Assembly (NCBI GenBank): GCA_013215285.1
Contig: JABSRD010000001.1
Span: forward strand, 579,208-643,207
Direction of reading: 5' to 3'
Length of the DNA: 64,000 bases
Source of the DNA: Candidatus Nitrosopumilus sp.
GTDB lineage: Archaea; Thermoproteota; Nitrososphaeria; Nitrososphaerales; Nitrosopumilaceae
Numbering within the stretch: position 1 is the first letter of the stretch; each line of letters begins with the position of its first letter. Below the pieces are notes generated by a model. It was not told the origin of the DNA, ran no database searches, and worked only from the letters and a program-made list of their open reading frames with translations. The position numbers were made by a program, and so were the translations under genes. Shown here one piece after another: positions 8,576 to 58,167 of the stretch.

Positions 8576-9230
8576 ATTTCTTCTTTATCTCCTGTACTTG
8601 TTTTACTGGTTTACCCATTGAAGTTTTTATCATAACTTTTTTAATATTTTTTTCACCGTTTGGTAATTTCTTCTCAATTGCATTAAGAACTGCGTGTGCA
8701 TTAATTGCTAAATCTGCATCATCCATTGACTCATCTCCAATTTTACATGATACGGATAATGATGCTCTTGTTCTAACTTTGATTGATGATCTAAATCTTG
8801 CCAAAAATGCATCCATATCTGCATCAAATGGAACTGGTGTTGGCATTTTTCCTCTAGGACCTAATAGTTGACCTAAAGACTTACCGACAGTTGGCATGAC
8901 TTTGGTGTCTGCCAAAAAGAAATCATATTTGTTAATGAATTTTCGAGATTCTCTTTTATTACTTGCAAATTTACTCAACTCTGCTTCGCCAATTACAATG
9001 TCTGCCTTTGCAGCTTTTGCTTTTTGACCAATTTCACCATCAGCTATAATGCATACAGTTGCAGGAGAACTTGTTTTTGGAAGTTGAACTACTTCATTAA
9101 TGGCAAATCCTTTCTTGACATCAATATCTTTGAAATTAATGATTAACTCTATGGATTGTGTGAATTTTCTTTTCTTTGTTTCAGTTTTTGCTTTTTTAAT
9201 CACTTCAGCAAATTGTGTCTCAGTAACCAT
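8568..9230 (-). CDS. rpl1: Large ribosomal subunit protein L1 (uL1)
   Basis: LGQLLGPRGKMPTPVPFDAD; adjacent to L10. Confidence 0.96.
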   Translation of the reverse strand: MVTETQFAEVIKKAKTETKKRKFTQSIELIINFKDIDVKKGFAINEVVQLPKTSSPATVCIIADGEIGQKAKAAKADIVIGEAELSKFASNKRESRKFINKYDFFLADTKVMPTVGKSLGQLLGPRGKMPTPVPFDADMDAFLARFRSSIKVRTRASLSVSCKIGDESMDDADLAINAHAVLNAIEKKLPNGEKNIKKVMIKTSMGKPVKQVQEIKKKYA

Positions 9231-54216: not shown

Positions 54217-54912
54217 ATGCCTGAATTTGATTCACTTGCAATGGTTGTATTGGCTATTGCAATAGTCGGTATCATAATAGTCACTGCAAAATCAAGATTA
54301 ACTTCAAATAATGTAACCTTGAACAATAGTGGTAAAACAACAATGTCTAATAATATTTACAAACTTGCAATGCTTGGAATTGTTGCGATAATTGTCTTTG
54401 GTGGTTACATGGCAATTTCTGGTTACAATACTGAGATTTACCCTCTTGATAGAATTCGAGGAAATCTTGATGGAATTGTAGGTTCTTCAGATCCTAATGT
54501 AATTCGTGATCATTTGGTGGCAATTCAAACTGATTTGGATGTTGTAATGGTGAATCTTCCAGAAACAATTGATGCAGATGGTAAATTGATTGCTAAAAAC
54601 CCCGTTTGGATATTTAGTACAGAATCTACAAACTTCCTCAGAATTCAAAATAATATTGATACCATGATTACAAGTGTTAATGACATCTCATCCATTTCAA
54701 AAGATAATTCTGCATATCATACAGCAATGTTGGATATCAACGATAGAGCAGAAATATTAAAAATCAATATTATGGATGCAACTCCATACATGTATGTCAG
54801 TCCTGAAAACATGATGATGAGTGTTGTTTGGATTGCAGTAGTAATTGGAATCATTATTTTATTGAAAAGAAAGAAAGAACAACTTCAGAAAATAGATGAA
54901 ATTGGTATCTAG
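54217..54912 (+). CDS. Membrane protein, two TM helices flanking extracytoplasmic domain, paralogue of GT2 C-terminus
   Basis: YKLAMLGIVAIIVFGGYMAISGYNTEIYPLDRIRGNLDGIVG... identical to GT2 C-terminal region. Confidence 0.85.
   Translation: MPEFDSLAMVVLAIAIVGIIIVTAKSRLTSNNVTLNNSGKTTMSNNIYKLAMLGIVAIIVFGGYMAISGYNTEIYPLDRIRGNLDGIVGSSDPNVIRDHLVAIQTDLDVVMVNLPETIDADGKLIAKNPVWIFSTESTNFLRIQNNIDTMITSVNDISSISKDNSAYHTAMLDINDRAEILKINIMDATPYMYVSPENMMMSVVWIAVVIGIIILLKRKKEQLQKIDEIGI
54349..54782 (+). repeat. Direct repeat copy 2 (434 bp)
   Basis: See copy 1. Confidence 0.97.
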
Positions 54913-56420
54913 GAAATATTTAGATCCTTTCTAATTTCGTCTACTGCTCTAATTCCATAAATGTCTCTTATTTGCTGAATTCTTACAGATTCTTTTAACA
55001 TGTCTCGTCCTATTGCATTTGATAAAATTGAATAAACATCACTAAATCTAATTTCCCATTTATCTGCACAATCTAAAATTTTACTTACTGCCCATTGTCT
55101 TACTTCGTGAGGTAATGGAATCTTTTCACCTGCTTCAATTGAAATTTTATCAAATAGATTAACAATGTCAGCAGTTTGTAATGCCATTTTTTCAAGATTT
55201 TTTGAATTCCCATACTTTGTTTCTGAATTCATTCTAATACTTGATTGATATTCTGAAAGTTTCAACAATGCCATCATCTCTACGGAAGAGTCACTCGATG
55301 CCTTGTTTGTAACATTTCTGATTGCCTGCACCTCTTCAAATAATTTTTCAGATTTTTTATGGAATTCTATCGTTGATTCATCTTGTCTTTTTAGAATATC
55401 TGAAACAGAGGATATTTTTTGTTCAATACTGTTTGTTTTATCAAACACATCTTGTTTGAAATCTGAAAAATCTCCCTGAACTGATTTGAGTCCCTCTCCT
55501 ACAAATGCTGTGGAATCAGCTCTTTGTGATAATGCTCCAATTTCCGTCTCAATTTTATCAATTTTACCTCCTAATTCCTTCATAGATTCGAGGCTTAGAT
55601 TGTCTATTGTGCTTGTCTGTGATGATATGGTTTCAAACTGTTGTTTGAGTCCCTCAATTACTCCTCCTAGAGAATCAATTTTTGATGCCTTTGATGATAT
55701 GGCATCAATTGTAATTTTAATTGCATTTAATTCAGCATTGAGATTTGAAGTAGACGACATCCCCTCAGCAATTTTCTCAAATTCTTGTCTAAGACTTTCA
55801 ATAACTTGTGTTCCTGTTTCGTTATCTCCAGTTTTTCCTGAAATGTTTTCAATGCTGTTTTTTAAATTATTAATTTCAGAACTAATTTCCAAAAATGAAT
55901 CTGTTTTTCCAGAAACTTTTCTAAGATCATCTCTTACTTCATCAATTCTTTGAGCCATTTTGATAATCATTTCAGAATTATTTTTAATTGAATTTATACT
56001 GTCTTCTACTCTTTGAGATAGTTCAGGTGATGCTTTTTGTGATGAAGCAATTTTATTTATCTCATCTTGTAATTTGGTAGTTTGATCATTAATCTTATTG
56101 ACTAAATTGGATTGTGTTCTTACTTGATTTAATCCTGCATATAATTTCTGAGTATCTCCTTCTATAATGTTGATTTGTTTTGATTGTTTTTGGATATATT
56201 CAAAAGTTGATGCTAGTGAATCTATCATACCTTTCATTGATACTAGGACCTTTTGGTTTTCACCAAAAATTTTTGACATTACTTTGATCTCTTTTTGTAA
56301 TGCTTTATTTGAATCTGAAACTGATGCGACTTTCTTTAGTAGTATGGATGGATTTGGCTCCCTTTTTACAACTTTTTTTGTTTGCTTTACTATTTTTTTC
56401 TTTGTAGTTTTAGTAGCCAT
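54909..56420 (-). CDS. Long coiled-coil protein
   Basis: 503 aa, extended heptad-rich middle, Lys-rich N-terminus MATKTTKKKIVKQTKKVVKREPN. Confidence 0.75.
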   Translation of the reverse strand: MATKTTKKKIVKQTKKVVKREPNPSILLKKVASVSDSNKALQKEIKVMSKIFGENQKVLVSMKGMIDSLASTFEYIQKQSKQINIIEGDTQKLYAGLNQVRTQSNLVNKINDQTTKLQDEINKIASSQKASPELSQRVEDSINSIKNNSEMIIKMAQRIDEVRDDLRKVSGKTDSFLEISSEINNLKNSIENISGKTGDNETGTQVIESLRQEFEKIAEGMSSTSNLNAELNAIKITIDAISSKASKIDSLGGVIEGLKQQFETISSQTSTIDNLSLESMKELGGKIDKIETEIGALSQRADSTAFVGEGLKSVQGDFSDFKQDVFDKTNSIEQKISSVSDILKRQDESTIEFHKKSEKLFEEVQAIRNVTNKASSDSSVEMMALLKLSEYQSSIRMNSETKYGNSKNLEKMALQTADIVNLFDKISIEAGEKIPLPHEVRQWAVSKILDCADKWEIRFSDVYSILSNAIGRDMLKESVRIQQIRDIYGIRAVDEIRKDLNIS

Positions 56421-56481: not shown

Positions 56482-56589
56482 CTACCTGTTTACCATTTCT
56501 GGTTCATGAAGTAATTCATGAAATGTCTTTTCAGCCAATCCATTATGTGTCTCAATAAACCCTTTTGGACAATATTCGCATTGAATCAT
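56482..56589 (-). CDS. C2H2-type zinc-finger microprotein (35 aa)
   Basis: MIQCEYCPKGFIETHNGLAEKTFHELLHEPEMVNR; CxxC...H...H. Confidence 0.65.
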   Translation of the reverse strand: MIQCEYCPKGFIETHNGLAEKTFHELLHEPEMVNR

Positions 56590-56614
56590 ATAGTACGGTA
56601 TGGTACCGTACTAT
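56590..56614. promoter_or_regulatory. Perfect 11-bp inverted repeat, 3-nt spacer
   Basis: ATAGTACGGTA-TGG-TACCGTACTAT, abuts ATG of 56589(-). Confidence 0.9.
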
Positions 56615-56645
56615 TAATGCTCAGGTGATTATCAAATAACCAAAT

Positions 56646-56708
56646 ATGCAGTCAGATACCCCAGGTCATATCTCATCATAATCAGTTGACCTACTCATCA
56701 CTCTGCAT
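56646..56708 (-). ncRNA. Box C/D sRNA (63 nt)
   Basis: Minus strand: ATGCAG-A-GTGATGA(C)-GTAGGTCAA-CTGA(D')-TT-ATGATGA(C')-GATATGACCTGGGGTAT-CTGA(D)-CTGCAT; terminal stem ATGCAG/CTGCAT. Confidence 0.88.
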
Positions 56709-56832
56709 TTAGATGACAATTGCTAAGAATAAAGAGGTTAATCACTATCTGTTTTATGAGCCTACTTTTGATGAATCATTATTGTTTGATTTAATTTTAA
56801 AATTTTCAATGAGTAATCGTTTTTAAAGAAAT

Positions 56833-58167
56833 TTGTTAAACGATAACATGCAAAACCTTTCACTACAATTAGACTCGAGTGGAATTCAAAACTCTCTGAA
56901 CAATACTGTCACTAGTATAATTGAGCAAATTACTCCTGAGCTTCCTCACACAAGTTTTGTAACTGATTTAGCTTTTATCATGATAATTGGTGCAGTTGTA
57001 ACACTTGCCTTTTTTAAAATTAAACAACCTTTGATCATTGGTTATCTTTTTGCAGGAATGTTGATTGGTCCATTTTCCACATTGTGGTCCTGGATTTTAC
57101 CTAAAGGTGGCCCTAATTCTGAAGTTGCAGGAGCTGTAGGAATTTTATCTGATATCTCAGCATTGAATCTTTTTGCAGAAATTGGTGTTATTTTACTCCT
57201 TTTTGTTATTGGTATTGAATTTCCATATTCAAAAATTAAAAGTATTGGTAGAGTTGCAGTTGGAGTTGGTTCAATTGGATTGTTTTCAACATTAGGTGTT
57301 ATTTTTTATACTGCTATTGCCCTTGGATTGAATTTCATGGATGCATTATTCATTTCTGCAGCATTATCGATATCCAGTACTGCAATTATTGTCAAACTTT
57401 TAGAGGAAACAGGGAGAATCAAAAAAGAATCATCTATCCTAATTTTGGGTATCTTAATTGTCGAAGACGTAATAGCAGTTATTTTAATTTCTTCATTACA
57501 ATCTATTGCTCTAGTTGGAACTGTATCAATAGAATCTATTATAGCAGTAGTGGCAGTTGCAGTTGCTCTAATTGTTGGAACATTTACTATTGGAACTCGT
57601 GTAATTCCTCCACTCATTGATAGAGTGGCCGCAGCTGAGAATCGTGAAATTTTATTACTCAGCGTTCTTGGTTTGTGTTTTGGATGTGCTTTATTTGCAA
57701 ATGTTGTAGGACTATCTGTAGCAATTGGAGCATTTTTAGCAGGAGTACTTGTGGCTGAATCAAAATCTGCTGAGGTTGCAAAATTACTTTCTAGTCCAAT
57801 TAAGGATATGTTTGTAGCAATATTCTTTATCTCAGTTGGTGCATTGATGGATGTTTCACAACTTCAAAATTATATCTATGTAGCAATTGTTTTGATTGCA
57901 GTTTCTATTGGAATGAAGTTTGGAAGTAATTTAATTGGAAATTTTATATTTCGACAAAAACGTGGAAAAGCAATACGTTCTGCAACCACTTTAGCTGCCC
58001 CTAGAGGTGAATTCTCAATTGTAATTATTAAAGTTGGAGTGGATATGGGGGCAGTAAGTTCTTTCTTATTCCCATTGATAGGTATGATTACTATAATTAC
58101 TGCAATAATTACTCCCTTTCTGATGAAAGCTGGTGACAAAGTAATTCCTGTAGTAGATAAAAAATAA
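56833..58167 (+). CDS. Cation:proton antiporter, CPA2 family (KefB/NapA-like)
   Basis: About 12 TM; IIGYLFAGMLIGPF; LFAEIGVILLLFVIGIEF; AALSISSTAIIVKLLEE; ATTLAAPRGEFSIVI. Confidence 0.9.
   Translation: MLNDNMQNLSLQLDSSGIQNSLNNTVTSIIEQITPELPHTSFVTDLAFIMIIGAVVTLAFFKIKQPLIIGYLFAGMLIGPFSTLWSWILPKGGPNSEVAGAVGILSDISALNLFAEIGVILLLFVIGIEFPYSKIKSIGRVAVGVGSIGLFSTLGVIFYTAIALGLNFMDALFISAALSISSTAIIVKLLEETGRIKKESSILILGILIVEDVIAVILISSLQSIALVGTVSIESIIAVVAVAVALIVGTFTIGTRVIPPLIDRVAAAENREILLLSVLGLCFGCALFANVVGLSVAIGAFLAGVLVAESKSAEVAKLLSSPIKDMFVAIFFISVGALMDVSQLQNYIYVAIVLIAVSIGMKFGSNLIGNFIFRQKRGKAIRSATTLAAPRGEFSIVIIKVGVDMGAVSSFLFPLIGMITIITAIITPFLMKAGDKVIPVVDKK

Follow-up and report, generated by a model that had tools for sequence, protein, structure and literature searches.

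A box C/D sRNA gene of Nitrosopumilaceae with a predicted single guide for 23S rRNA and a covarying helix most likely in place of its D' guide

We describe a box C/D sRNA gene on the minus strand of a 64-kb stretch of DNA (64,000 nucleotides; hereafter the window) from a Candidatus Nitrosopumilus sp. It is most likely a single-guide sRNA, whose D' guide appears to have been replaced by an internal helix. We consider it likely that a single 23S rRNA cytidine is 2'-O-methylated by this sRNA in complex with L7Ae, Nop5 and fibrillarin, the D side serving as the only guide and the other strand being engaged in the internal helix. The evidence comes from sequence: the boxes and the terminal stem, covariation of the helix, complementarity of the guide, conservation across the family, and a matching change of guide and target in a second family. 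The features are as follows.

56646..56708, minus strand: box C/D sRNA gene; predicted RNA of about 63 nt, with predicted ends
56703..56708, minus strand: 5' arm of the terminal stem, ATGCAG; pairs with 56646-56651, the pairs covarying as GC/GU/CG/AU/UA
56646..56651, minus strand: 3' arm of the terminal stem, CTGCAT; identified from covariation of the stem pairs
56695..56701, minus strand: box C, GTGATGA; near-invariant in 36 aligned orthologs
56682..56685, minus strand: box D', CTGA; some of the aligned orthologs have CAGA or CGGA
56673..56679, minus strand: box C', ATGATGA; ATGAAGA or ATGTAGA in most orthologs
56652..56655, minus strand: box D, CTGA; from the aligned orthologs
56657..56665, minus strand: putative rRNA guide CCTGGGGTA (N10-N2), complementary to 23S UACCCCAGG; N5 is 56660
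56687..56693, minus strand: 5' strand of the internal helix, TAGGTCA (s2-s8), previously read as the D' guide; covaries with 56662-56668
56662..56668, minus strand: 3' strand of the internal helix, TGACCTG (N13-N7); covaries with the 5' strand
56727..56740, minus strand: probable BRE/TATA element, TAACCTCTTTATTC; located some 20-30 nt upstream of the sRNA

Read on the minus strand from 56708 to 56646, the gene is ATGCAG-A-GTGATGA-GTAGGTCAA-CTGA-TT-ATGATGA-GATATGACCTGGGGTAT-CTGA-CTGCAT. An earlier note, made from the letters of the window, had proposed an unannotated box C/D sRNA with this box array and a 6-bp terminal stem. The array and the stem were confirmed exactly, and the assignment is well supported by the boxes, the compensatory changes in the stem, a promoter-like block and the family-wide conservation. 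The RUGAUGA box C and the CUGA box D close the terminal stem, and internal C' and D' boxes are present, C' being degenerate in most orthologs. The full canonical C/D'/C'/D array was found once in the window and never in 30 shuffles, and the C..D'..D pattern gave seven matches in the whole genome versus none in the reversed control. Among the six genome matches with inspected flanks (the seventh, L273, was left out), only 56646-56708 combined a canonical C' with a terminal stem, and the pattern search revealed no further convincing, fully canonical C/D sRNA in the genome. Within the genus, a fully canonical C' is peculiar to the source species and its closest relative; most same-genus orthologs have AUGAAGA or AUGUAGA, and AUGAUGA reappears in some other genera. 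One sub-lineage (L025, L028, L081 and L096) carries a 6-nt insertion around D' (GCAGATTAGGATTAAGATGAAGA), and its D' box is non-canonical, CAGA or AGGA.

Of 61 relatives searched with a 76-base query, 34 had a match, each of them a member of the same genus, and the sRNA was present in nearly every locus fetched via the neighbouring coiled-coil protein, Nitrosarchaeum included. These loci also place the window in Nitrosopumilus or a closely related genus. Covariance model R1, for which 36 orthologs were used, had matches in 196 of the 401 genomes examined from the class. With two exceptions these genomes belong to a single family, which by its named loci is Nitrosopumilaceae; the two, with weak scores, belong to a family that we have taken as Nitrososphaeraceae (f8). 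Across 77 loci, an upstream block, AAc.tcTTTATgC, is conserved (∼1.1 bits versus ∼0.3 in the flank), and the sequence farther upstream of it is not. Since this block, which lies at the expected distance from the RNA, resembles an archaeal BRE/TATA promoter, the sRNA is probably a separate transcription unit. Rfam had been named in the earlier note as a check, and the sRNA scored below the gathering threshold of every Rfam 15 family. In the scan of the window only two tRNAs reached their gathering scores, with no family for the sRNA, for which the best C/D family was sR9 (19.8 bits; cut-off, 36). As judged from the boxes, the stem and their conservation, the array at 56646-56708 is a real gene.

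The home assembly is devoid of a 23S gene, and so the 23S genes of relatives were used, the 16S and 23S sequences scanned being those of a complete relative. The D guide CCUGGGGUA (N2-N10) forms nine consecutive Watson-Crick pairs with 23S UACCCCAGG (stretch TACCCCAGG), directly before GGAUAACAGG, and the target site was identical in all 15 of the Nitrosopumilaceae 23S genes fetched. The N+5 position counted from the D box is the second C of UACCCC in 23S. We take this C to be the equivalent of E. coli 2441, as counted from the universally conserved GGAUAAC (D2449), and presumably part of helix 74, leading into the peptidyl-transferase centre. The D side thus has the at least nine pairs covering N+5 that serve as the criterion for an rRNA target in Dennis et al. 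2015 (PMC4644070). The earlier note, which had held that a target of 8-9 bp was needed and had derived UACCCCAGG with a C at N+5 from the D guide, was right in kind, and this sequence can now be assigned to 23S rRNA with 9 bp.

Shuffled D spacers reached a 9-bp rRNA match covering N+5 in 4.6% of the cases, and so conservation and the second family are needed to support the assignment alongside the pairing. The pairing by itself would be modest evidence for the D target. N1, which lies outside the duplex, varies freely (U/A/C/G), whereas N2-N8 are almost fixed, and this contrast together with the second family makes the evidence strong. Three other candidate targets were rejected. The 16S sequence UUAGAUACCC (10 nt including one G-U) would place four pairs within box D and needs U at N1, which varies; 23S GAUACCCC (8 bp) is shorter and requires U at N1 too; and the match to the initiator-tRNA D-loop, UCAGGUCAU (N6-N14), leaves N5 uncovered and disappears wherever the strand differs. 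When the full complement UACCCCAGGUCAU was searched for across the genome, with up to two mismatches allowed, the only exact match was the gene itself, and there was no excess over the reversed control.

The second family provides a guide and a target that have changed together. The weak R1 matches outside Nitrosopumilaceae have the guide CUAGGGUA in place of CCUGGGGUA. If this guide addressed the same site, the rRNA was expected to read UACCCUAG, an expectation that preceded the fetching of the 23S sequence. The 23S gene of the f8 genome G043 reads GTTACCCTAGGG / GTTACCCTAGGGATAACAGG, which matches it. G043 carries a C/D sRNA (L306, about 8650-8720, plus strand) with the guide CUAGGGUA (CTAGGGTA) that forms 8 bp at the homologous 23S site, and the guide of a second f8 sRNA, L269, pairs there over 9 bp. 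Neither f8 guide pairs with Nitrosopumilus rRNA at the site, nor does the Nitrosopumilus guide pair with G043 rRNA at the homologous site. N10 is mismatched in the Nitrososphaeraceae-type sRNAs, and no internal helix was seen in them; the D' spacer of L306 is 9 nt long, with no partner strand seen. The Nitrososphaeraceae sRNAs may be convergent rather than orthologous, and even if so they would support the 23S site.

The D' side behaves differently. Its spacer, GUAGGUCAA, is complementary to the bases adjoining the D guide on its 5' side, giving UAGGUCA/UGACCUG (s2-s8/N13-N7). Two unpaired spacers of 10-12 nt are typical of box C/D sRNAs in the archaea studied, though they do not define the family; here the spacers are of 9 nt (C-D') and 17 nt (C'-D; 16-17 nt across the orthologs), and they are complementary and covary. 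In the first 36 orthologs 98% of the helix cells pair, with little variation. Paired changes of both strands occur in the divergent genera: AGGUG/CACCU (g36 and g26), CAGAG/CUCUG (g29 and g30), CAGGC/GCCUG (g39), UGGGUAUA/UAUACCUG (g28) and GAGUAUAA/UUAUACUU (g41). The pair s7-N12 appears as C-G, A-U and G-C, s6-N11 as U-A, G-C and C-G, and both s5-N10 and s4-N9 as G-C and A-U.

Covariation was scored, with background correction, for each of the 368 variable-column pairs in an anchored alignment that comprised 71 distinct orthologs. Only pairs with a canonical share of 75% or more and at least three pair types entered the ranking. Of these covarying canonical pairs, s7-N12, three terminal-stem pairs and s6-N11 took the first five places; next came s5-N10 and s4-N9, with one chance pair between them. 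Overall, 92.6% of the helix cells were paired, versus at most 45% when the strands were slid, and none of 2000 permutations in which entire 3' strands were exchanged, a procedure that ignores sequence relatedness, reached this value. In the genera g29 and g30, N10 is U, which makes a G-U pair with the rRNA and weakens the guide duplex, and s5 is A, which keeps a Watson-Crick helix pair with this U. These genera keep the helix at a cost to the rRNA duplex, which indicates that the helix is under selection of its own.

The covariation fits equally well with pairing within one RNA or between two sRNAs. Archaeal sRNPs can be dimeric (PMC7994747), and the helix could form in trans between the two copies of a di-sRNP; alternatively, the D' module might methylate its own N10, which is the N+5 position counted from D'. 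We regard these variants as unlikely, since the same pairs give a simple rod within a single molecule, the naked RNA having a predicted fold of -18.7 kcal/mol (z -2.8), and this is the simpler arrangement. Still less probable is an ordinary double-guide sRNA whose D' spacer directs a second methylation in rRNA or tRNA. A D' box and spacer are present, the spacer is conserved within the genus, and a weak 16S match exists, UUGAUCUAU, with two G-U pairs. However, the longest Watson-Crick run covering N+5 in 16S and 23S is 5-6 nt (at most 7 in any variant), no match was found among 45 tRNA sequences, the 16S, 23S and tRNA sequences being the stable RNAs scanned for a D' target, and the changes of the spacer between genera track the other strand of its own RNA and not the rRNA. 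A D' guide with an rRNA or tRNA target is usual, though not universal, among such sRNAs; the one put forward earlier, with UUGACCUAC as its target, falls short of 8-9 bp in both rRNA and tRNA, and its strand covaries within the same RNA instead. A chaperone that acts on one variable RNA helix, opening its two strands and covarying with it, along the lines of the paired-guide use proposed in PMC4644070, is highly improbable, as CAGGUCA joined to UACCCC is absent from the rRNA with 1.5 kb of flanks and from the 45 tRNA sequences, the genome search described above gave no excess over its control, and the 23S target is invariant in Nitrosopumilaceae.

For the single-guide reading we propose the following course of events. 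L7Ae would bind the C/D and C'/D' motifs, with Nop5 and fibrillarin following, and the D side would direct methylation of the 23S cytidine at N+5, the presumed equivalent of E. coli 2441. The C-D' strand would pair upstream of the D guide and form a helix of 5-8 bp that separates the C/D k-turn from the C'/D' k-loop, the extra length of the D-side spacer supplying the strand for it. With such a helix the architecture of two motifs would persist in the absence of a second substrate, the helix perhaps keeping the second motif in position. N7-N10 are common to the internal helix and the rRNA duplex, and s3-s5 (AGG) have the same letters as the AGG of the rRNA. Therefore, the rRNA probably pairs first with the exposed N2-N6 (UACCC), which would act as a landing site, and then opens the helix by strand displacement. 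The energies predicted at 37 C (-18.4 kcal/mol for the guide-rRNA duplex, -9.0 for the internal helix and -7.1 for the seed alone) would allow this displacement. A stronger version, in which the guide is gated, the helix masking N7-N10 with a copy of AGG and being opened only by rRNA already paired to N2-N6, is put forward tentatively, and we think it somewhat doubtful. If true, the helix would check specificity from within the guide RNA, or would take the place of the second substrate that archaeal two-domain sRNPs presumably require.

By its boxes, stem and guide this RNA would be classed as a box C/D guide sRNA. It is like the archaeal double-guide sRNAs (snoRNAdb, Rfam sR) in its C, D', C' and D boxes, its terminal stem and its length of ∼60 nt, as well as in a D guide with at least nine pairs to 23S and a target near the peptidyl-transferase centre. 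It differs in its paired, odd-length spacers and in the replaced D' guide: the spacers of archaeal sRNAs are described as unpaired and 10-12 nt long, and this length was reported to be essential for methylation (PMC3608112, PMC7994747), whereas here spacers of 9 and 16-17 nt are mutually paired, with a single one of the two as the guide. In sRNAs with an 'empty' D' guide, such as sR152 of Thermoproteus tenax, which has no D' rRNA target (PMC4644070), likewise only the D guide targets rRNA; here, in contrast, conservation extends to the non-guide strand, which has a covarying partner inside the RNA. Eukaryotic single-domain guides, of which MeU2-C28 is a minimal example, also have one functional guide, and the authors of that work suggest that pairing extends beyond stem II, into a region supposed to be single-stranded (PMC6770171). 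Guides of that type are without C' and D', whereas in this sRNA both boxes persist, with the helix placed between its two motifs.

In the open-licence literature we found neither a C/D sRNA described from ammonia-oxidising archaea nor a conserved helix formed between two guides; either may have been mentioned earlier elsewhere. Here a gene kept throughout a very abundant family of marine archaea departs, with clear covariation, from the rules of unpaired spacers and of 10-12 nt spacer length. The symmetrical two-domain particle of archaea was reported to be essential (PMC6770171), and the sRNA described here would offer a natural single-guide RNA for probing why archaeal particles need two motifs. 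The predicted site is a specific, testable modification site beside the catalytic centre of the ribosome in ammonia-oxidising archaea.

The sRNA gene is located between two divergent genes, 54909-56420 (minus) and 56833-58167 (plus). The former encodes a 503-aa coiled-coil protein conserved in Nitrosopumilaceae, for which Pfam gave only weak, generic coiled-coil matches. An unlisted 35-aa ORF, MIQCEYCPKGFIETHNGLAEKTFHELLHEPEMVNR, lies at 56482-56589 (minus) and has a zinc-finger-like CxxC-x16-HxxxH pattern, with no convincing match in a Pfam search. It has 37 protein variants in the fetched relatives, with 420 substitutions at the third codon position versus 133 and 130 at the others. A near-perfect palindrome, AGTACGGTACCATACCGTACT (56592-56612, minus), separates a TATA-like TATTAATA from this ORF's start codon and is present letter for letter in 84 of the 345 loci fetched; it looks like the operator of a leaderless gene, which is perhaps autoregulated. 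Just 3' of the sRNA, at 56624-56641 (minus), there is an imperfect inverted repeat of the GGTTAT-N6-ATCACC type, conserved as GGTtAC...taAT.ACC in 77 loci, which may be an operator or a processing/termination element.
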